From Candidatus Nitrosotenuis aquarius (GTDB lineage: Archaea; Thermoproteota; Nitrososphaeria; Nitrososphaerales; Nitrosopumilaceae): 64,000 nt of DNA. Location of the stretch: the NCBI RefSeq assembly GCF_002787055.1, contig NZ_CP024808.1:62001-126000 (forward strand), written 5' to 3'. Under the pieces are notes generated by a model that saw only the letters and a program-made list of their open reading frames with translations, searched no databases and was not told the DNA's origin. Below are positions 18,212-28,697 of this stretch, piece after piece (the first letter of the stretch is position 1; every line of letters starts with the position of its first letter). A program made the position numbers and the translations under genes.

Positions 18212-19246
18212 CTATAGTTCTGGCTCTATTCCCTTGGCCATTCGCAGTGCATCTACCAGTCCGTCTGCATACCCTATAGACAATATTGCAAGCTCGTCCT
18301 GGCCTTGCGAGTAGAACCGCTCTGCGTCCTTGATGTACAAGTCTGCATTTTCTAGAACACCTGCAAATTCCTTTGAATCCTTGTAGTGTGGGGTGATCTG
18401 GTCCAGTGCTCGCCGGACCATCGGGATGTATTTTTTCATCATCTGCGCAGAAATCTTTTCTATTTTTGGAGTGTTGTCATCTGGAATAGTAATACAATGC
18501 CCTAACACCTTTAGTGCGTCGGATTCTGTAAAGTGCATTATTCCTGGAATGATTATTGTGTGAGGCGGTGCACCAAAGTCCTGCTCTACCAAATCCGAGA
18601 ATTTTGCAGCAATGATTTTTTGGTCGTCTTGGCCTATTCTTGATGCGACAATTCCGTATGTGTCGCCAGAGAAAACTTTGCGGTTTTGCTCTTTTTCCTG
18701 GTCCAATAGACTTGATATGGCGTCTTTGGGATCCAAAAAGAAATTCTTGTTTTGGTTCCATTCTAATAGTACAATGGTGTGGTTTCCCAACTTCAAATTC
18801 TCAAATATTGTGTAATATGCAGTAGATGAGGGAATCCCGCTCATTATGGTGACTGTTTTGCCTACTTTGTAAAAGTGGAGGCCGCACTCGCCAACCAGTG
18901 ATGTTATGGCTGATGATGCGTGGATTGTGTCAGTTTTTATTCCATCTTGGATTGCGCGCACACGCAACTCGATATGCGTTGTGGCAATGTATGGGTCACC
19001 ATACGACAATAACGCGACATTGCAGTTCTTTGCTGCCTCTAGGATTTCTTTTCCGTCCTCGACTAGCCACCTTGGCGCCAGCTTGAACTGTCCATTTGTT
19101 ATTTCTTGGAGAAACTTTGTCTGGTTTTCTGGCATGGGGCTTGTAAACTGCTCAAAATACACAACGTCTGACTCTGAGATTGTTTTTCTTGCCTTTTCAG
19201 ATAGTGCTTGCGAGCCGCCAATTCCTAGGCCAACAAAGACTAGCAT
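18212..19246 (-). CDS. dphB: Diphthine synthase fused to a DUF357-like domain
   Basis: Residues 1 to about 255 are the SAM-dependent tetrapyrrole-methylase fold of Dph5, which methylates the modified histidine of elongation factor 2: LVFVGLGIGG, LLSYGDPYIATTH, HASSAITSLVGECGLHFYKVG. The normal protein is about 260 residues; this one is 344. The extra C-terminal part (KKYIPMVRRALDQI, then ADLYIKDAERFYSQG and LAILSIGYADGLVDALRMAKG) looks like the small helical DUF357 family, normally a separate protein. The gene overlaps lysK by one base, so it appears attached to the lysine operon. Confidence 0.85.
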   Translation of the reverse strand: MLVFVGLGIGGSQALSEKARKTISESDVVYFEQFTSPMPENQTKFLQEITNGQFKLAPRWLVEDGKEILEAAKNCNVALLSYGDPYIATTHIELRVRAIQDGIKTDTIHASSAITSLVGECGLHFYKVGKTVTIMSGIPSSTAYYTIFENLKLGNHTIVLLEWNQNKNFFLDPKDAISSLLDQEKEQNRKVFSGDTYGIVASRIGQDDQKIIAAKFSDLVEQDFGAPPHTIIIPGIMHFTESDALKVLGHCITIPDDNTPKIEKISAQMMKKYIPMVRRALDQITPHYKDSKEFAGVLENADLYIKDAERFYSQGQDELAILSIGYADGLVDALRMAKGIEPEL

Positions 19247-20376
19247 TACTTTTCGGTCTTTGCGTCGTGCAGTCGTTTTAGGTGATGCAGAGTGTTTCGG
19301 ATTACTTCGATGCCACGGAGGTATTCATTCATGGATACTCGCTCATCTATTGTGTGAGATGCGTGCGGATCTCCTGGGCCATATGTTACAACAGGAATGT
19401 TCCACAGTGTGCCAATAATGTTCATGTCGCCTGTCCCTGTTTTTCTAATCAGTGCTGGACGCTTGCGCTCTACGTCCATTACTCCAAGTGTGAATGCTCG
19501 AACCAGGGGTGAGTTCATTGGCGCCTCAAACGGCTCGGTTTCGTCTATTACAGAGTATAGTGCTTCTACTTGCTGCTTTGATGACAGCTCTGCTACCTTG
19601 GTTGCAATTTTTTCTCCCACTGCCTTGCAGTTGAGCGTTACTGGGATCCTAATGTCCATTATGGTGTTGCATTCCTTTGGGGTGACGTTGTGGCTGTCAC
19701 CTCCCTTGATTTCAGTAATGGTTGCAGTCAGCATCATTCCTTTTGATTGGCCTTCCTGGTTTTCCTCCAGTGCTTTTTTGAGCTCTGTGGTGAACTTCAT
19801 GGATTCTTCGATTGCGTTTCTTGCAAGCCATGGGGCGGATGCGTGTGCCGAATCACCCACGTTGATTCTGAGATTGATTGCAATTCTTCCCTTGTAAGCT
19901 ATTGTGACATTTGTAATTCCTGATGGCTCGCCAAAGACGGCATAGTCGATGTCGAGCTTTTGCTTTGCCAGGTTTTTGATTCCTGTTGCATTTCCTTCCT
20001 CGTCTACTGCTCCAACAAAAATTATGGTGCCATTATTTTTGTGGACAGTGGATGCTGCAAGTAACATTGCCATCAGTGGCGCCTTGGCATCGGATGCTCC
20101 CCTGCCGTATAGAAAGTCGCCTTCCTTTCGGACCTTTACTTTGCCCGGCACTGTGTCCATGTGGCCGCAAAGCAAGACTCGAGGAGAACCAGAGCCTATA
20201 GTTGCAATTAGGTTTCCCACTTCGTCGATTTTGATGTTGTCAAATCCCAGATCGTCGCACTTGTCTGCCAGAAATTCTGCCATTGGCTTTTCAGCTAGTG
20301 ACGGCGTGTACAGACGCAGCGCTTTCTCTAGCATTTTAATAGAGAACCTTGGGGTTATTGTAAATGACGAGTCCAT
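19246..20376 (-). CDS. lysK: [LysW]-lysine/ornithine hydrolase (M20 peptidase family)
   Basis: Metallohydrolase of 376 residues releasing lysine (and probably ornithine) from the LysW carrier. M20 metal ligands and catalytic residues are visible: H and D in LLCGHMDTVPG, D in GRGASDAKAPL, the E-E pair in GAVDEEGNATG, and H near the C-terminus (GDPHASHT). It is the last lysine enzyme of the operon, with lysX four bases upstream. Because no second copy is seen, it may act on both LysW carriers. An internal ATG at 20334 is an alternative start. Confidence 0.9.
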   Translation of the reverse strand: MDSSFTITPRFSIKMLEKALRLYTPSLAEKPMAEFLADKCDDLGFDNIKIDEVGNLIATIGSGSPRVLLCGHMDTVPGKVKVRKEGDFLYGRGASDAKAPLMAMLLAASTVHKNNGTIIFVGAVDEEGNATGIKNLAKQKLDIDYAVFGEPSGITNVTIAYKGRIAINLRINVGDSAHASAPWLARNAIEESMKFTTELKKALEENQEGQSKGMMLTATITEIKGGDSHNVTPKECNTIMDIRIPVTLNCKAVGEKIATKVAELSSKQQVEALYSVIDETEPFEAPMNSPLVRAFTLGVMDVERKRPALIRKTGTGDMNIIGTLWNIPVVTYGPGDPHASHTIDERVSMNEYLRGIEVIRNTLHHLKRLHDAKTEK

Positions 20377-20380
20377 TTTT

Positions 20381-21226
20381 TTAATTTCCTGATTTTACTG
20401 CGTATTCTAAAATCTTTGCGGCAATGTTGACGCCGGTGACCCGGGCAACGTTTCTGTATTCGGTAGTGTTGTTTATTTCGTGAATTACTAGGCCGCGCTC
20501 TTTGCTCTCCATGAGGTCAATTCCAACTATCTGACCCTTGACGCAGTCCTTTGCCTTGATGCAGACTTCTTCTAGTTCTGGGGTTATCTCGCATACTTCG
20601 GCAGTGCCTCCTAGGTGGGTGTTTGTCTTCCAGTTTTCTGTGGTGGAATTGCGATATATGGCGCCTACCACCTCGTCTCCAATTACTATGGCTCTAATGT
20701 CGCGTGGTGGCCTTTGCACAAATTCTTCTAAATAATGAATCTGGTAAATTGGGTACATTTTTTCCCGCTCTTCTATGATTCCTTCGGCTGCCTCTCGGTT
20801 GTTGAGCCTCTGGACCATTCTGCCCCAACTGCCTACGGTTGGCTTGATCACCTTTGGATAGCCAATCCTATCCAGTGCATCTAGTGCAGAATCCTTGGAA
20901 AATGCCACACTCACATATGGCGTTTCAATTCCTGCGTTTCTTAGCAAGGTATGTGTGAATAATTTGTTGCCGGCATAGACTCCGCAGTACAAATTGTTAA
21001 TTACATTTGCGCCCATCCCCTCCAGTGCCGCAGTTGCGTGCAGATTCCTGTAATAGCTGACGCATCTTTGAAGTACTGTATTGTATTGGGATTTTTTGTC
21101 AATGTCTAGCACGAGATTCTTACAGTCTACCATTTCGATTTTGATGCCAAGTTTTTCGGCCGCCTCGGTGAGGGCTTTTTCTTCTGGTCGAACAGTATCG
21201 TAGAGAATCGTTATCGGGTGGCTCAC
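20381..21226 (-). CDS. lysX: LysW-aminoadipate ligase LysX (ATP-grasp)
   Basis: RimK-like ATP-grasp ligase of 281 residues joining 2-aminoadipate to the C-terminus of LysW. GSWGRMVQRL, RPPRDIRAIVIGDEVV and HEINNTTEYRN mark the ATP-grasp core and metal ligands. Residues 259-260 are N-V. From memory, the equivalent position is N-G/A in LysX and G-F in ArgX of Sulfolobus, so Asn points to the lysine branch. The GTG start overlaps the stop of lysW1 (21223-21226), coupling ligase and carrier translation. Pairs with the carrier ending in Gln. Confidence 0.88.
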   Translation of the reverse strand: MSHPITILYDTVRPEEKALTEAAEKLGIKIEMVDCKNLVLDIDKKSQYNTVLQRCVSYYRNLHATAALEGMGANVINNLYCGVYAGNKLFTHTLLRNAGIETPYVSVAFSKDSALDALDRIGYPKVIKPTVGSWGRMVQRLNNREAAEGIIEEREKMYPIYQIHYLEEFVQRPPRDIRAIVIGDEVVGAIYRNSTTENWKTNTHLGGTAEVCEITPELEEVCIKAKDCVKGQIVGIDLMESKERGLVIHEINNTTEYRNVARVTGVNIAAKILEYAVKSGN

Positions 21227-21390
21227 TGGCCCCAGTCCTCTCCGACGCTTTGAGCTGGCTTTAGCCCAAATCCGCCTGAGGCCTTGGTTATCTCAAAACT
21301 TGCACCACAATCTGGGCAAGTTACCAGTTCGCCTTCTACGGCATCACTTGGAATTGAAATATCCGAATCACATTCAGCACATTTTGCCAT
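21223..21390 (-). CDS. lysW: Amino-group carrier protein LysW, copy 1, unusual Gln C-terminus
   Basis: A 55-residue carrier protein. Four zinc-binding cysteines (C4, C7, C25, C28) and the acidic body are typical of LysW. The family ends EDWGE, where the side-chain carboxyl of the final Glu is joined to aminoadipate or glutamate. This copy ends EDWGQ: codons GAG GAC TGG GGC CAG TGA. It overlaps lysX and starts two bases after the homocitrate synthase stop on the coding strand, so it is firmly in the lysine operon. A one-base sequencing error would restore Glu, and a deamidation step before loading is an alternative. Confidence 0.9.
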   Translation of the reverse strand: MAKCAECDSDISIPSDAVEGELVTCPDCGASFEITKASGGFGLKPAQSVGEDWGQ

Positions 21391-21392
21391 GG

Positions 21393-22574
21393 TTAATCCT
21401 TGCTGTCCTTTGCGTCATTAATTATCTTTCTTTCAAGTTTGTTGTCAAGTGGGATTTCCAGCAGGTCGCCCATTCTGAGGTTTTTAAGACCTGCAGCTAC
21501 TGCCTTTGCCTGGTTGTCGTCCTTTGGCAGTCCAAGTAACGACATTAGGTATGCCGAGCCGCTTTTGCCGGCTAGCTCCCCAAAGACGATTCTTCGCCTG
21601 TTGCCTACTACTCTTGGCGGAATTGGCTCGTAAGCTGCCGGGTTTCTTAGAATGGCTGCCAGGTGGGTTCCTGCCTTGTGCTTGTATGCTGTTGGGCCCA
21701 CAATTGGCTTGGAGTCATATGGTGGAATGCCGGTGTATTCTTCGATTAGTCTTGATAGGTCAGTTAGCATGTCTAGTCTGAAATCATTTGGAGACCTGTA
21801 CAGATACGTCATTGCAACTGCTACTTCTGCCAAAGACGGTATGCCCGTTCTCTCGCCAATTCCGTCTATTGTGGTGTGGATTTGGTCTGCCCCTGCATCA
21901 ATTCCTGCAAATGCGTTTGCAACGGCTAGGCCGATATCATTATGGCAGTGCACATCAAGTGGGACCTTGATTTTTTCTTTGACCATTTTTACAAAGTTAA
22001 ACATGCCCTTTGGCCTCATTATTCCTACAGTGTCTGGCAGACTAATTCTGTCAACGCCTGCTTCCTCGATTGCCTTGCATACTTTGAGCAGAAATTCCGG
22101 ATCTGCACGGGAACCATCCTCTACAGTGAATCTCATTTTTAGGCCATGTGATTTTGCATATTCTACTGTCTCTACTGCCCTGCGCAATGCTTCCTCTCGG
22201 GTGATTCTCAGCTTGTCCTTCATGTGAATATCAGATATTCCAAGATAGGTTGCAGTCCACTTTGGATCACACTTTAGTGCAACGTCTACGTCTTCCTTTA
22301 GTGCGCGAACATGCGCTACAATGTCTGCCTTGAGGCCTTGCTTGATGATTGTCTTTGTCGCTTCGAAATGATCCTCAGATACTACTGGTGAAATCTCAAT
22401 TTGGTCTACGCCAAAATAATCAAGCATCCATGCAATTTGGATTCTCTGCTTGTTGGTAAATGTCACACCTGGGTGCTGTTCGCCCTCTCGAAGCGTACTG
22501 TCCAGTACGTGGATTTTTCTCGGCTTTTTGTCGTATTCGTTGTGCAGGTGCGCGTAATAGTTTGGGTCGCTCAT
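21393..22574 (-). CDS. Homocitrate synthase (isopropylmalate synthase family)
   Basis: DRE-TIM metallolyase of 393 residues from the ATG at 22574. Motifs: DSTLREGEQHPGVTF (metal and CoA site), SLPDTVGI, and the metal ligands in VHCHNDIGLAVAN. The product homocitrate is the first intermediate of the aminoadipate route; position directly before lysW1-lysX makes this more likely than 2-isopropylmalate or citramalate. A TTG at 22589 is in frame, but a TATA box at 22602-22610 places transcription start next to 22574, supporting a leaderless ATG. Confidence 0.88.
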   Translation of the reverse strand: MSDPNYYAHLHNEYDKKPRKIHVLDSTLREGEQHPGVTFTNKQRIQIAWMLDYFGVDQIEISPVVSEDHFEATKTIIKQGLKADIVAHVRALKEDVDVALKCDPKWTATYLGISDIHMKDKLRITREEALRRAVETVEYAKSHGLKMRFTVEDGSRADPEFLLKVCKAIEEAGVDRISLPDTVGIMRPKGMFNFVKMVKEKIKVPLDVHCHNDIGLAVANAFAGIDAGADQIHTTIDGIGERTGIPSLAEVAVAMTYLYRSPNDFRLDMLTDLSRLIEEYTGIPPYDSKPIVGPTAYKHKAGTHLAAILRNPAAYEPIPPRVVGNRRRIVFGELAGKSGSAYLMSLLGLPKDDNQAKAVAAGLKNLRMGDLLEIPLDNKLERKIINDAKDSKD

Positions 22575-22692: not shown

Positions 22693-23112
22693 TTACGTTA
22701 CTTCGCGCAGTATTATTACGGTGTTTGTGTCTGATACGCCTGGCACTTTGCGTAGTGAGTCAATTGCCAAATTAATCTCTGTGATATTTGGAGATGAAAT
22801 TATCACTGCAATGTCGTACTGTCCAGTGATTTCGTACACTGTCTTTACTCCGTCTAATTTGGTGAGTCTTGCAGACACCTTTGATGTGTCCATTGATGAT
22901 TCCACTGATATGAGTACGATTGCCTTGGTAGAATTTTGCTCGCCGATTTCTATTGTGAATTTTTTGATTATCTGGTTGTCGGTGAGATTTTTGACTCGAC
23001 GTCTAACTGCGGACTCTGAGAGCTTGAGTTTCTTGCCGATATCAACAAATGATTCCCTGGAGTCGTCCTTTAGGATTTTTAGAATTTCGTCGTCTACTTT
23101 ATCCTTGTACAT
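22693..23112 (-). CDS. Lrp/AsnC-family regulator in the lysine/arginine cluster
   Basis: Encodes 139 residues: N-terminal HTH (DDEILKILKDDSRESFVDIGKKLKLSESAVRRRVKNL) and C-terminal RAM ligand-binding domain ending VSDTNTVIILREVT. Sulfolobus has a comparable Lrp protein (LysM) in its lysine cluster that senses lysine; by position this protein is a good candidate for the same job. It overlaps lysJ by 14 bases and sits just upstream of the homocitrate synthase promoter. Confidence 0.85.
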   Translation of the reverse strand: MYKDKVDDEILKILKDDSRESFVDIGKKLKLSESAVRRRVKNLTDNQIIKKFTIEIGEQNSTKAIVLISVESSMDTSKVSARLTKLDGVKTVYEITGQYDIAVIISSPNITEINLAIDSLRKVPGVSDTNTVIILREVT

Positions 23113-24283
23113 TCTTTCTTCTCTCCGATTCCTTGGTAAATAACCTATCTAGTACTTCTAATACTTTTGTTATTTCTGCCTCACTCATTACTAGAGGTGG
23201 TAGGAATCGGAGTATGTTTCTGCCTGAATACAACAGCAAGACTCCCTCTTGTATGCCGTCTAATAGTATGTCCTTTACTTCGAATTTCATCTCCACTCCA
23301 ATCATCATGCCTTTACCTCGGACATCTCGGATGATTGGGTGTTTTTGTTTTAGCTTTTCTAGGCCTTCCATGAATATTTTGCCCATCTTGGCTGCATTGT
23401 CGACTAGTCCGTCTTGGGTTAATGCCTGGATTGTTGCAATTCCAGCTGCGCATGATAATGGGTTTCCGCCAAATGTGGAGGAATGCTCGCCCTTGCTCAT
23501 TGCTGCCAATATATCTGGCCTAGTCAGCGTTGCACTCATTGGAACGCCGCCTGCAATTCCTTTTGCCAAGCACATGATATCTGGGATCGTATTCCAGTGG
23601 TCCGACGCCCACATCTTGCCAGTTCTGCCAAGTCCAGCTTGGATTTCGTCAAAGATTAGCAGGATTCCGCGCTCATCGCACAGCTTTCGAACATCTTGGA
23701 GGAATCCGTCTGGGGCTACATTGATTCCGCTTTCTCCCTGGATTGGCTCCATTATCACAAATGCGGTATCGAAATCAATTTTGGTTCGCAGTGTTTCAAT
23801 GTCGCCAAATGGTGAGAACGCCACTTTTTCTACCAGCGGCATGAATGATTTTCTGTATTTTGGATTAAATGTTACAGACAGTGATCCAAGTGACTTTCCG
23901 TGATATGATCCGTTCATTGCAACCATTCCTGATTTGCCGGTGAACTTTCTTGCAAATTTTATTGCGGCCTCTACTGCCTCTGTGCCACTATTACCCATGT
24001 GCACCTGTGTTAGTCCCTTTGGCGCAATTCTCATTAAATTGTCAAGGAATTCTTCTCTGGTCTTGTTGTATAATGATGTGTGGACCGTGATTATTTTGTC
24101 TAATTGTGCCTTGAGTGCGGCCACTACCCGTGGGTTTCTGTGGCCTACCAGTGCAACGCCATATCCGCCCATGCAGTCGATGTATTCTTTGCCGTTGATG
24201 TCGTAGAGTTTTGCACCTTCGCCGCGCTCTATAGTAACTGGGAAGCGCTGGTACATATTTCCAAGATAATTGTCTTCAGTCAT
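23099..24283 (-). CDS. lysJ: [LysW]-aminoadipate semialdehyde / acetylornithine-type aminotransferase
   Basis: Class III PLP aminotransferase of 394 residues from the ATG at 24283, which overlaps the lysZ stop in an ATGA junction; an ATG at 24301 gives six more residues. PLP-site features are FDEIQAGLGRTGKMWA and the lysine in CLAKGIAGGVPMS. It transfers an amino group from glutamate to the carrier-bound semialdehyde. As the only ArgD/LysJ homologue seen here, it probably works in both lysine and arginine synthesis. Confidence 0.88.
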   Translation of the reverse strand: MTEDNYLGNMYQRFPVTIERGEGAKLYDINGKEYIDCMGGYGVALVGHRNPRVVAALKAQLDKIITVHTSLYNKTREEFLDNLMRIAPKGLTQVHMGNSGTEAVEAAIKFARKFTGKSGMVAMNGSYHGKSLGSLSVTFNPKYRKSFMPLVEKVAFSPFGDIETLRTKIDFDTAFVIMEPIQGESGINVAPDGFLQDVRKLCDERGILLIFDEIQAGLGRTGKMWASDHWNTIPDIMCLAKGIAGGVPMSATLTRPDILAAMSKGEHSSTFGGNPLSCAAGIATIQALTQDGLVDNAAKMGKIFMEGLEKLKQKHPIIRDVRGKGMMIGVEMKFEVKDILLDGIQEGVLLLYSGRNILRFLPPLVMSEAEITKVLEVLDRLFTKESERRKNVQG

Positions 24284-25080
24284 TTTGTGATCACCGTGCA
24301 TTTTGTGTGGGATATGGCAGATGAGATTGGGTTTTCTCGCTGGCCGTTGCCGATTAGTGCCTCTTTTACTCCCATGTCTAGTGCCTCTGTTGCAGCCAGG
24401 ATTTTTTTCTCCATGCCAAAGCCCACCTTTGGCCTAATCTCTTTGGCTTCTGCATTTGTCATCTTTTCCACTAGCTTGTCGTTCATTAGCAGGCCGTCGA
24501 CATTTGTGATAAAGAGAATCTTGTCGCTCTGGATTGCGCCTGCAACGTTTGCAGCTGCGCGGTCTCCGTCGATATTTAGCATGTCGAATTCCTTGGATAC
24601 GGCAATTGGGGAGATTACCGGCGTGTAGCCTTTTTCTAATAATAATTTGAGCAGGTCTGCGTTTACCTTGGTTACTTTACCAGTATAGCCGCCGTCGATG
24701 ATCTGCTTTCTGCCCTTGTCGTTTATGATTACTAGCTTTTCCTTTCGCTCTGCAACAAAGATCTGGCCGTCAATTCCTGACAGTCCTATAGCATTGATTC
24801 CGTGCTTTTGCAGCATTTGTACAATGGATTTGTTGATTTTGCCAGACATTACCATGGTGAATATTTCTGCAGTTTCCTTGTCGGTGTATCTTGATTTGAT
24901 TCCGCCGGGGGACACTACGAACTTGGGCTCTTTTCCAAGCAATTCGCATGTCCTGGTTACCTCTTTTCCTCCACCGTGTACCAAAATGACTCCTTCTTGC
25001 TCTGCAACCTTTTTGATGTCAGATATGGTACTTGGATGAAGATTTTCTACGACGCTTCCGCCGATTTTGATTGTAATCAT
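24280..25080 (-). CDS. lysZ: [LysW]-aminoadipate/glutamate kinase
   Basis: Amino-acid kinase of 266 residues (ArgB family). Phosphate-binding glycines are in MITIKIGGSVVENL and VLVHGGGKEVTR; NDKGRKQIIDGGY and NIDGDRAAANVAGAIQSDKI are the later kinase motifs. It phosphorylates the side-chain carboxyl of the carrier-bound amino acid. Four bases separate it from lysY upstream, and the ATGA overlap links it to lysJ downstream. Confidence 0.88.
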   Translation of the reverse strand: MITIKIGGSVVENLHPSTISDIKKVAEQEGVILVHGGGKEVTRTCELLGKEPKFVVSPGGIKSRYTDKETAEIFTMVMSGKINKSIVQMLQKHGINAIGLSGIDGQIFVAERKEKLVIINDKGRKQIIDGGYTGKVTKVNADLLKLLLEKGYTPVISPIAVSKEFDMLNIDGDRAAANVAGAIQSDKILFITNVDGLLMNDKLVEKMTNAEAKEIRPKVGFGMEKKILAATEALDMGVKEALIGNGQRENPISSAISHTKCTVITK

Positions 25081-25083
25081 TTC

Positions 25084-26139
25084 TTAAACTGGGGTTAGTG
25101 GCGAATATCTTAGTCCGTCCATTTCATCAAAGCCTGCCATAATGTTCATGTTTTGTATGGCAGAGCCTGCTGCGCCCTTCATTAGGTTGTCTGATGCAGA
25201 TAATGCGACTAGTCGGTGGTTGTCCTCATCGATATCAAATCCAATGTCGCAGAAATTAGAGCCTACCACAAACTTTGGATCTGGGAACTTGTAGAGGCCT
25301 TTCTTGTCTCGGATTAGTCTGATGAATCGCTCGTTTTTGTACATTTCACGGTACATTTTCCAGAGATCAATTTCACTGACCTCCTTTGTGAGAAATGTGT
25401 GGTTTGTACATAATATTCCTCGAACAATATCCACTGCGTGTGGGCTCATTGATACTTTGATTGGCTTTCCTGCGATCTCTGATAATTCTTGCTCTATTTC
25501 GCCTGTGTGTCTGTGCTTTGCTGGCTTGTATGGTCGAATTACACCTGAACGCATTGCGTGGTGTGTTCCTGCAACACTGCCTGCTCCCGCACCTGAAGAG
25601 CCGATTTTAGAATCTACTACAATATGCTCAGTGTCGATAATGTTGTTTTTGACAAGTGGTGCTATAGCTAACATTGATGTTACTGCCATGCAGCCTGGGC
25701 ATGACACTAGTTGTGCATTTCTGATCTTTTCTCGGTGCAGTTCTGGCACGCCAAAGACTGATTTTGCTAGATACTCTGGGTGTGGGTGCTCCCATCCATA
25801 CCATTTTACGTATGCTTCTTTATTGTGTAAACGATAATCTGCTGACAAATCCACGACCTTGAGACCTCTGTCGTACAAGGCCTTGACAATTTCTGTTGCT
25901 GTTCCGTGTGGGACTGCAGTAAACACTAGGTCGCACTTGTCTGACATTCTGTCATAGTCTAGCTCTGAAAATGTCAGCTCGGTAAATCCTTTGAGTGCCG
26001 GCTGGACTCGATGTAGGTATTCTCCAACATATTGACGTGATGTAACTTGGGTGATCTCTACTTTGGGATGTGTGACTAGTAATCGTAGCATTTCTCCTCC
26101 GACATAACCTGATGCTCCGACTACACCTACTCGCAACAT
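25084..26139 (-). CDS. lysY: [LysW]-aminoadipyl/glutamyl phosphate reductase (ArgC family)
   Basis: NADPH-dependent semialdehyde dehydrogenase of 351 residues. NADP motif GASGYVGGEMLR, catalytic cysteine in VSCPGCMAVTSM and histidine region HRHTGEIEQEL are all present. An upstream ATG at 26205 would add 22 residues, but AT-rich TATA-like sequence on the minus strand (about 26164-26176) places transcription start close to 26139, and 351 residues is the usual ArgC length. First gene of the shared lysYZJ block. Confidence 0.88.
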   Translation of the reverse strand: MLRVGVVGASGYVGGEMLRLLVTHPKVEITQVTSRQYVGEYLHRVQPALKGFTELTFSELDYDRMSDKCDLVFTAVPHGTATEIVKALYDRGLKVVDLSADYRLHNKEAYVKWYGWEHPHPEYLAKSVFGVPELHREKIRNAQLVSCPGCMAVTSMLAIAPLVKNNIIDTEHIVVDSKIGSSGAGAGSVAGTHHAMRSGVIRPYKPAKHRHTGEIEQELSEIAGKPIKVSMSPHAVDIVRGILCTNHTFLTKEVSEIDLWKMYREMYKNERFIRLIRDKKGLYKFPDPKFVVGSNFCDIGFDIDEDNHRLVALSASDNLMKGAAGSAIQNMNIMAGFDEMDGLRYSPLTPV

Positions 26140-26217
26140 GTTCCTACACTGAATATGGTATAATTTATTGTATTCTGCATCAGAAAAAAATTTATTCAAT
26201 TTCATATAGTTCAGTTT

Positions 26218-26472: not shown

Positions 26473-27330
26473 TTATTTTCTGATTTGACTTACTGCGAAT
26501 TTTACCATTTCCTGCGGGATGTTTTTCTTTGCCACTCTGGCTAGTCCCTTGAATTCCACGGTGTTGTTCACTTCATGACATACAAGGCCCCGAGTTTTAT
26601 CCTCCATCAAGTCAATTCCTAGAATTCCGCCGCCGACTGCTTTGGAAGCCTTGAGGCAAATGTCTTCTACTTCTGGTGTGATCTCACATAATTCTGGGTC
26701 TCCACCTAGTGCAATGTTTGTCTTAAAATCGCCTTGCGATTTGCGATACATTGCTGCTACTACCTGGTCGCCAACTGTGATAGCTCGAATGTCGCGTGGG
26801 GGCCTGTCTATCATTTCTTGCAAATAGTATATTCTGTCATGCGAGCCGTCTTCGATGTCGCGCATTTCTATTATGGCTTCAGTAGTGTCTTTGTCGCGCA
26901 ATGGCATGACGCCCCTGCCCCAGCTTCCAATTACTGGCTTTATCACAATTGGATAGCCGACTTTGTTTATCAGATTCATTGCCTCTTCTGATGAAAATGC
27001 AAAGTATGTCTTTGGTGTTGGAACGCCTGCTTTTTTTAGCAATAATGATGTGACCATTTTGTTTCCGCAGTTATCAGCTACCTTGTGGGAATTGATAACC
27101 GGGACATCCAAAAATTCTAAACAAGAGGTAAAGTGCAAGCCTCGAAAATAGCTTACACATCTTTCTAGGACTACGTCGCCAAAGTCAACATCAGCTCGCT
27201 TGCTTTCTGTGCTTAGCTGCGTAATTTTTGCATCCAGCATTATTGTATCGTGCCCAAGGGCGCTTGATGCATCTTGGAGCATCTTCTCTTCCAGCCTTAT
27301 TCTGTCAAAGACGATACAGACTCTGGACAA
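26473..27330 (-). CDS. argX: LysW-glutamate ligase ArgX (ATP-grasp)
   Basis: Second RimK-like ATP-grasp ligase, 285 residues, about half identical by eye to LysX at 20381. GSWGRGVMPLRD, RPPRDIRAITVGDQVV and HEVNNTVEFKG are conserved. At the specificity position it has G262-L263, close to the G-F of Sulfolobus ArgX as I remember it, against N-V in LysX. It should attach glutamate to LysW for ornithine synthesis. The TTG start follows the lysW2 stop without a gap, and argG lies upstream, fitting the arginine branch. Confidence 0.85.
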   Translation of the reverse strand: MSRVCIVFDRIRLEEKMLQDASSALGHDTIMLDAKITQLSTESKRADVDFGDVVLERCVSYFRGLHFTSCLEFLDVPVINSHKVADNCGNKMVTSLLLKKAGVPTPKTYFAFSSEEAMNLINKVGYPIVIKPVIGSWGRGVMPLRDKDTTEAIIEMRDIEDGSHDRIYYLQEMIDRPPRDIRAITVGDQVVAAMYRKSQGDFKTNIALGGDPELCEITPEVEDICLKASKAVGGGILGIDLMEDKTRGLVCHEVNNTVEFKGLARVAKKNIPQEMVKFAVSQIRK

Positions 27331-27498
27331 CTATTCTCCCCAGTCTTCGCCTACGCTTTCTGCTGGTTTTAGCGACACGTTTGATCCACTTTTAGTTGCG
27401 ATTTCAAAGTCCGCGCCACATTCTGGGCAAGAGACTATTTCGCCTACTGCTGCGTCATCTGGGATATTGATTCCTGCGTCACATTCTAAACAATTCAT
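27331..27498 (-). CDS. lysW: Amino-group carrier protein LysW, copy 2, canonical EDWGE end
   Basis: A 55-residue carrier protein with zinc cysteines C3, C6, C24 and C27 and the canonical C-terminus EDWGE. It is clearly related to copy 1 but differs at about half the positions. I chose the ATG at 27498 because GAGGTGAG precedes it at a ribosome-binding distance and it gives the same length as copy 1; a GTG at 27513 overlaps the argG stop. Sits between argG and argX, so it is probably the carrier for glutamate. Confidence 0.93.
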   Translation of the reverse strand: MNCLECDAGINIPDDAAVGEIVSCPECGADFEIATKSGSNVSLKPAESVGEDWGE

Positions 27499-27509
27499 TA
27501 CGATCCTTC

Positions 27510-28697
27510 TCACCTCTTGTTTGATAATTTATTAGCTTCTGTTGTTTGCAGTCCCCACAGCTCTACAAATCCTGTTGCCTTTCTTTGATCAAAGGCGGAT
27601 CCCTTACCGTAGGTTGCAATGTCATGGCTATACAAAGAGTACTTGGATTTTCTTCCAACCACTCGGAAGCTTCCCTTGTATAGCTTGAGTTTAACTGTGC
27701 CAGTCACTACCTTTTGGGACTGGTCGATGAACTTGTCCAAGTCTCGCTTCAGTGGGTCTTGCCACAGTCCGGAATAGGCAAGCCATGTCCACTCTTGGTC
27801 TACTAGAGCCTTGAACTTGTTTTGGTGCTTTGTGTGCACCATTTTCTCCAGGTCAGAATGTGCCTCAATTAGGCACAGCGCAGCTGGGGTCTCGTAGACT
27901 TCGCGTGATTTGATTCCGACTACGCGGTCTTCAATGTGGTCTACTATGCCTACTCCGCACGAGCCTGCTACTTGGTTTACATATTCGATTAGTTTGATTG
28001 GCGATAATCTCTTTTTGTCAACTGCAACTGGGATTCCCTGATCAAATTCAATCTCTAGGTATTTTGCCTTGTCTGGCAGGTTCTTTGTCTTTACCCAGAT
28101 GAATGCGTCCTCTGGCGGTTCTGCGTATGGGTCTTCTAGGTTCCCACCTTCTATGGCACGTCCCCAGAGATTCTGATCAATAGAGAACTTCTTTGATACC
28201 GAGTCAATTGGAATTCCGTGTTTGTTTGCAAATTCTAGCTCTGTGGTTCGATCCAGATTTAGGTCTCTGATTGGAGCAATGATTGGCAGATTAGAGCCAG
28301 AGCCAAACGTTACATCAAATCGCACCTGGTCATTTCCTTTACCTGTACAGCCATGTGCCAGCGCATCTACTTTTTCCTTTTTTGCTATCTCTAGTACTTT
28401 TTGCGCAATTAATGGTCTTGCCAGCGAAGTTGCAAGACAATATTTTTTCTGGTATAGGGCGTTTGCCTTAATCGACGGATGAATAAAGTCGTCAACAAAC
28501 TCTTGCTTTGCATCAATATTGTAATGTCGTAATACTCCTAGGTTTTTTGCCTTGGCAGCGATTTTTTTCTGGTCGCTTCCCTCTCCAACATCTACCGTAA
28601 CAGTGATGACATCCATTCGGTGTTTTTCTTGTAGGTATTTGATAACAACCGAAGTGTCCAGTCCTCCAGAAAAAGCAAGCACTGCCTTTTGTTTCAT
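27510..28697 (-). CDS. argG: Argininosuccinate synthase
   Basis: Encodes 395 residues, normal family length. The PP-loop AFSGGLDTSVVIKYL, then VTVDVGEGSDQ, HGCTGKGNDQVRF and the WGRAIEGGNLEDP region are conserved. It joins citrulline and aspartate. It is the first gene of argG-lysW2-argX on the minus strand; argF and argH are not in the window. Confidence 0.97.
   Translation of the reverse strand: MKQKAVLAFSGGLDTSVVIKYLQEKHRMDVITVTVDVGEGSDQKKIAAKAKNLGVLRHYNIDAKQEFVDDFIHPSIKANALYQKKYCLATSLARPLIAQKVLEIAKKEKVDALAHGCTGKGNDQVRFDVTFGSGSNLPIIAPIRDLNLDRTTELEFANKHGIPIDSVSKKFSIDQNLWGRAIEGGNLEDPYAEPPEDAFIWVKTKNLPDKAKYLEIEFDQGIPVAVDKKRLSPIKLIEYVNQVAGSCGVGIVDHIEDRVVGIKSREVYETPAALCLIEAHSDLEKMVHTKHQNKFKALVDQEWTWLAYSGLWQDPLKRDLDKFIDQSQKVVTGTVKLKLYKGSFRVVGRKSKYSLYSHDIATYGKGSAFDQRKATGFVELWGLQTTEANKLSNKR

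Follow-up and report, generated by a model that had tools for sequence, protein, structure and literature searches.

The lysine-side carrier LysW1 of Candidatus Nitrosotenuis aquarius is encoded with a terminal glutamine (Gln, Q) where characterised LysW proteins have the glutamate (Glu, E) that is loaded. This Gln end is conserved among relatives, is exchanged only with Glu, and in some complete genomes is the only LysW end encoded, with the LysX ligases and the LysK hydrolase unchanged between the two residues. The favoured reading, to which a probability of about 0.5 is given from comparative sequence evidence, is that LysW1 is a genuine carrier made as a Gln pro-form and deamidated once to Glu, with LysK as the most economical candidate deamidase. 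Loading of the terminal Glu gamma-carboxyl is the defining feature of the LysW pathway. A carrier that is widespread among ammonia-oxidising archaea, and the sole one in some of them, cannot, as translated, be loaded in this way; either lysine and arginine synthesis contains an unrecognised processing step, or the loading chemistry is different.

The window is the whole stretch of DNA analysed, 64,000 nucleotides in length, and all coordinates refer to it. The genes run on the minus strand in the order argG-lysW2-lysX2-lysY-lysZ-lysJ-lrp-HCS-lysW1-lysX1-lysK-dph5, which bears out the original placement of lysW1 between a homocitrate synthase-like gene (HCS) and lysX1. The features are:

18212-19246, minus strand: dph5 (diphthine synthase), last in the cluster order
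19246-20376, minus strand: lysK, M20 metallohydrolase freeing the product from LysW, candidate LysW-Gln deamidase (PDB 5xoy, Peptidase_M20)
20381-21226, minus strand: lysX1, ATP-grasp carrier ligase of the lysine side, GSWGR intact (TIGR02144, 316.5 bits, cut-off 275.6)
21223-21390, minus strand: lysW1, carrier protein with encoded C-terminus EDWGQ (translation, NF041070.1, PF21344)
21226-21228, minus strand: terminal Gln codon CAG of lysW1; all characterised LysW have GAG or GAA (Glu) here
21393-22574, minus strand: homocitrate synthase/2-isopropylmalate synthase-type gene, upstream of lysW1 (profile matches below cut-offs)
22693-23112, minus strand: Lrp/AsnC-like regulator within the cluster (open reading frame, conserved position)
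23099-24301, minus strand: lysJ, aminotransferase, shared (gene order)
24280-25080, minus strand: lysZ, kinase, shared (gene order)
25084-26205, minus strand: lysY, reductase, shared (gene order)
26473-27330, minus strand: lysX2 (argX), arginine-side ligase, adjoins argG (TIGR02144, 306.8 bits)
27331-27513, minus strand: lysW2, second carrier with the usual Glu end EDWGE, codon GAA at 27334-27336 (NF041070.1, 89.4 bits)
27510-28697, minus strand: argG, marker of the arginine cassette (gene order)

Translation of 21223-21390 on the minus strand gives MAKCAECDSDISIPSDAVEGELVTCPDCGASFEITKASGGFGLKPAQSVGEDWGQ followed by a stop, a product of 55 residues ending SVGEDWGQ with CAG as its last codon, as had been predicted, and TGA (21223-21225) as its stop. 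The pattern GARGAYTGGGGNCARTRR was matched once in the window and not at all in shuffles. Its Glu-ended counterpart was also matched once; this match, at 27331-27348, falls at the end of lysW2 and confirms the predicted second copy with a normal end. LysW1 passes the archaeal carrier profile NF041070.1 (carrier_LysW_Arch; 89.1 bits, cut-off 75) and Pfam PF21344 (Zn_ribbon_LysW; 45.3 bits, cut-off 27), as LysW2 passes NF041070 and the Pfam LysW zinc-ribbon domain. It fails the bacterial/general equivalog TIGR01206 (27.2 bits, cut-off 53.2), but the Glu-ended LysW2 likewise fails (32.6 bits), and the failure therefore reflects archaeal divergence rather than the Gln. The protein retains its four Cys and an acidic character (net charge about -8), selection on the gene is strongly purifying (median dN/dS 0.08 within the genus), and a LysX-type ligase with GSWGR adjoins it. 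As judged from homology and context LysW1 is thus a LysW, without the defining C-terminal loading Glu in its encoded form.

The best PDB matches of LysX1 were 3vpd (Thermus thermophilus LysX) and 5k2m (Thermococcus kodakarensis LysX). LysK aligned over its full length with its best match, 5xoy, '[LysW]-lysine hydrolase' (E 3.5e-53), scored 275 bits against NF003367 (under the cut-off of 363), and has near-invariant M20 motif residues H72, D74, D96, E126, E127, E150 and H341 (51 sequences). The gene at 21393-22574 scored lower with LysS_fung_arch (388.5 bits, cut-off 413.6) than with the 2-isopropylmalate synthase subfamily (431.8 bits, cut-off 517), and neither cut-off was passed. The lysW1 and lysX1 genes overlap by the four bases GTGA, the GTG start of lysX1 lying within the end of lysW1 (CA-GTG-A, 21223-21228).

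The Gln end was present in all 17 genomes examined of the genus (that of the window and 16 others). It was also found in nearly every relative in the family of the window (f1), including every first-copy locus fetched in the first family search. Across 400 genomes of the class the EDWGQ-stop pattern occurred in 263, concentrated in f1 and two further families, f2 and f8, and was absent from the remaining families of the order and class. Among 300 genomes across the phylum, the sole Gln-ended LysW outside these three families was in G214 (locus L115), which lies outside the ammonia-oxidiser families in another class of the same phylum and is probably an independent Glu-to-Gln change. A pattern match in G148 was rejected as a LysW, being a chance match. 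A scan with an approximate LysW-like query, rather than a real protein, returned 14 LysW loci, all Glu-ended. A LysW-like protein in a Patescibacteria MAG (L181) ends EDFGE, Phe replacing a Trp that is otherwise invariant; within 1.5 kb downstream of its gene no LysX was found.

The lysine-side copy (W1; W2 is the arginine-side copy) ends in Gln in 45 of 47 classified copies of f1. The Gln codon within the GTGA overlap is CAG in 44 of these 45 and CAA in one, although the neighbouring genes use CAA more often for Gln (49 vs 35), and the third base may therefore be held by the lysX1 start. This overlap was rejected as the cause of CAG itself, as GAG-TGA gives the same GTG start and Gln remains in f2 and in genus g29 where there is no overlap; a frameshift into lysX was rejected on the same two groups. 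In f2 and f8 the Gln occurs with other stop codons and with both Gln codons. The original prediction had allowed for a sequencing error since CAG and GAG differ by one base, but well over 100 independent genomes share the residue, specified by CAG or by CAA, and an error of sequencing or assembly is excluded as the explanation.

A census of 232 LysW copies recorded 135 ending in Gln and 97 in Glu, with no other last residue. The Gln codons were CAG in 90 copies and CAA in 45, and stop codons and gene overlaps varied. Gln was found in either copy, and all four combinations of lysine-side and arginine-side ends occur: Q/E in f1, f2 genus g23 and f8 genus g44; E/Q in f8 genera g164 and g165; Q/Q in f8 genera g163, g41, g169 and g170; and E/E in f3, f2 genus g50, G353, G548 and the non-oxidiser families. 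At least six lysine-side changes between Glu and Gln are required on the LysX1 tree and at least three arginine-side changes on the LysX2 tree, with three in each forced by starred branches; this gives at least nine swaps over the two trees, of which six lie on well-supported branches. The chance that all six would be between Glu and Gln is about 1 in 100,000, a rough estimate that treats each as a random single-base missense change with 7 possible outcomes. Whatever the last residue, the residue nine before it marks the copy (PAQ in W1, PAE in W2), so the copies have not simply been replaced by each other, and gene conversion between them was considered unlikely. Together with the strong purifying selection on lysW1 and the use of both Gln codons, the exchange of Glu with Gln alone supports the original suggestion of a deliberate change.

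Several complete, single-contig genomes of f8 contain no Glu-ended LysW. G440 and G458 each encode two LysW, both ending in Gln, and G079, G110 and G117 encode a single Gln-ended LysW beside both LysX, a pattern shared by twelve further incomplete genomes of the genus of the latter three. In these three genomes (loci L078, L079 and L080) lysW2 has been lost and lysX2 lies directly after argG. On this genomic evidence the Gln-ended LysW is the sole carrier available in such genomes, the pathway is kept whole in all five complete ones, and the Gln-ended protein must therefore be a working carrier. The possibility raised originally that LysX only loads LysW2 consequently fails as a general answer. 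One f1 genome, G038 (L118), has a single, Glu-ended LysW and no lysW between HCS and lysX1; with Glu-only and Gln-only genomes both represented, either end alone suffices.

Neither DapB nor ArgJ was found in the genome of the window or in the five complete f8 genomes, in searches which were both positive in control genomes. A LysA-like decarboxylase scoring below the family cut-off is present in G440 (G440:C1:2409291-2410565) and in the four other complete f8 genomes, but without DapB it makes no diaminopimelate route. For Nitrosopumilus maritimus the acetylglutamate step has been reported as missing and the arginine route modelled through LysW (PMC6038301). In f8 genus g167 four genomes (G499, G526, G557 and G620) have one LysX and one LysW, the latter Gln-ended; G614 of this genus is an exception and looks mixed. 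The G499 cluster (L130) also contains lysY, lysZ, lysJ, lysK and argG. The single LysX of g167 is possibly bifunctional, like the ligase of T. kodakarensis, or these organisms may be arginine auxotrophs.

The GSWGR motif, which recognises the EDWGE tail (PMC10433800), was invariant in LysX1 (126/126) and in LysX2 (84/84). No alignment column of LysX1 separated enzymes with Q partners from those with E partners (126 sequences, 93 with Q partners). Four columns of LysX2 co-vary with the residue, but were rejected as determinants as they follow the f8 lineage and are away from GSWGR. No column of LysK, LysZ or LysJ tracked the residue, and the single column found in LysY separates ammonia oxidisers from the rest rather than Q from E. 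As the ligases and later enzymes do not change with the terminal residue, the simplest explanation is that all of them see the same Glu-type carrier. LysK is single-copy in the genome of the window and five other complete genomes and, having no tracking column, one hydrolase serves both Q and E carriers.

Simple hydrolysis yields Glu from Gln and from no other residue. Since Gln offers no free acid to the known loading reaction, ammonia is probably removed first, as is known for the prokaryotic ubiquitin-like protein Pup. In the proposed scheme the side-chain amide of the terminal Gln would be hydrolysed to give Glu; LysX would then link aminoadipate or glutamate to the gamma-carboxyl, as established for Glu-ended LysW; LysZ, LysY and LysJ would act on the loaded carrier and LysK would free lysine or ornithine, leaving LysW-Glu to be recycled, as established elsewhere. 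Only the newly made carrier would need deamidation. The normal cut of LysK is at the amide that ties lysine or ornithine, by its alpha-amino group, to the gamma-carbonyl of the last LysW residue; LysW-Gln has this gamma-glutamyl amide too, except that the leaving group is ammonia. That LysK already breaks such a bond at this very position of LysW makes it the economical candidate for the first step, and with LysK in this role Glu and Gln could interchange without gain or loss of a companion gene. Of the three options offered by the original prediction, error, deamidation and attachment through another group, the second is best supported on these comparisons, given the Gln-only genomes and the unchanged ligase and downstream enzymes; the third is retained as a rival. 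The candidacy of LysK, the hydrolase of the pathway itself, as deamidase goes beyond that prediction.

Two considerations temper this scheme. LysK is a metallopeptidase unrelated to Dop, the Pup deamidase, and would have to act on a primary amide; Glu-only genomes keep the same LysK, and comparative genomics therefore cannot single it out from another housekeeping deamidase. Furthermore, full equivalence of Glu and Gln should have led to more drift than is seen with Gln in 45 of 47 f1 lysine-side copies, and Gln may carry an advantage that the pro-form reading leaves unexplained.

All of the evidence for a Gln pro-form would apply equally if a separate amidase, and not LysK, deamidated LysW-Gln, as only the enzyme differs. 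We consider this rather unlikely, as no extra gene is consistently tied to Q lineages, and none dedicated to them was found, in the conserved clusters compared. The gene directly after lysK in f1 and f8, dph5, is there with or without Gln on the lysine side, and is absent from that position in f2, where Gln is present, and in f3. An unlikely variant has LysX acting on the Gln form directly, either by a reversal with ADP and phosphate, giving gamma-glutamyl phosphate and ammonia, or by exchange of ammonia for the amino acid. It would need no further enzyme, lysX adjoins the carrier gene, and amide hydrolysis with ADP and Pi is known from Dop, an enzyme with a ligase fold; however, the Pup ligase PafA lacks deamidase activity (PMC7947786 for both enzymes), and with active-site and carrier-recognition residues the same for Q or E every LysX would need this ability.

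Loading through the free alpha-carboxyl of the terminal Gln, with aminoadipate or glutamate attached there in the manner of RimK-type alpha-ligases, would make deamidation unnecessary, and LysX is of the RimK family and matched by alpha-L-glutamate ligase profiles. This is nevertheless improbable: the Q and E links would differ, yet single LysZ, LysY, LysJ and LysK serve both within one genome, with no tracking residues in any of the four and none near GSWGR in LysX1 or LysX2, and the linkage would have to change at each swap, in both directions. That the Gln copy is never loaded, being a regulator or structural partner, and that the Glu-ended LysW2 serves both ligases would suit most f1 genomes, in which one copy ends in Gln and the other in Glu; Sulfolobus uses one LysW for both pathways (PMC10433800). 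We hold this to be distinctly improbable, as it fails in the complete Q-only genomes that keep both cassettes, the arrangement is reversed in f8 genera g164 and g165 (arginine-side Q, lysine-side E), and LysW1 keeps the EDWG tail, Cys and acidity of a carrier. There is, lastly, a very small chance that the Gln codon is read as Glu part of the time. Archaea make Gln-tRNA by amidation of Glu-tRNA(Gln), some of which could escape the amidotransferase, but as both CAA and CAG are used the effect would extend to every Gln codon, and no local signal is present.

Deamidation of LysW1 before loading would add a step to metabolic models of ammonia-oxidising archaea, and would suggest convergent evolution with Pup and Dop. 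In the open-access literature searched, no mention of EDWGQ or of LysW deamidation was found, and a report elsewhere is possible; only PMC10433800 and PMC3402447 gave EDWGE as a motif of LysW, and among papers naming LysW deamidation occurred only in an unrelated review of modification sites.

LysW1 resembles the LysW/ArgW carriers of T. thermophilus, Sulfolobus acidocaldarius, T. kodakarensis and N. gari in its acidic four-Cys zinc ribbon, EDWG tail, GSWGR-containing LysX partner and gene set, but the characterised members load the gamma-carboxyl of Glu (PMC10433800, PMC3402447) where LysW1 encodes Gln. The LysK of the window is likewise similar to 5xoy in its full-length alignment and M20 motifs, whereas the proposed action on LysW-Gln is not reported for 5xoy. 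In mycobacterial pupylation (Pup/Dop/PafA) a small modifier also ends in Gln or Glu by lineage and is loaded on the Glu gamma-carboxyl, and one hydrolase both unloads it and deamidates the Gln (PMC3511204, PMC8223512, PMC7947786). This deamidation of Pup-Gln by Dop has been described as 'chemically equivalent to depupylation', and Dop has been retained in relatives whose Pup ends in Glu (PMC8223512, PMC3511204). The two systems have no sequence relation: LysW1 is a zinc ribbon ending EDWGQ and not a disordered protein ending GGQ or GGE, its cargo is a metabolite rather than a protein, and its enzymes are an ATP-grasp ligase (LysX) and an M20 metallohydrolase (LysK), where Dop and PafA have the glutamine synthetase fold. 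We tentatively propose that the ammonia oxidisers have a second, independently evolved Gln-to-Glu activation of a carrier, in which LysK would both license the carrier and release the product. Deamidation is established for Pup and is proposed here for LysW, and by this analogy LysW1 probably works like a Gln-ended Pup without kinship to it.
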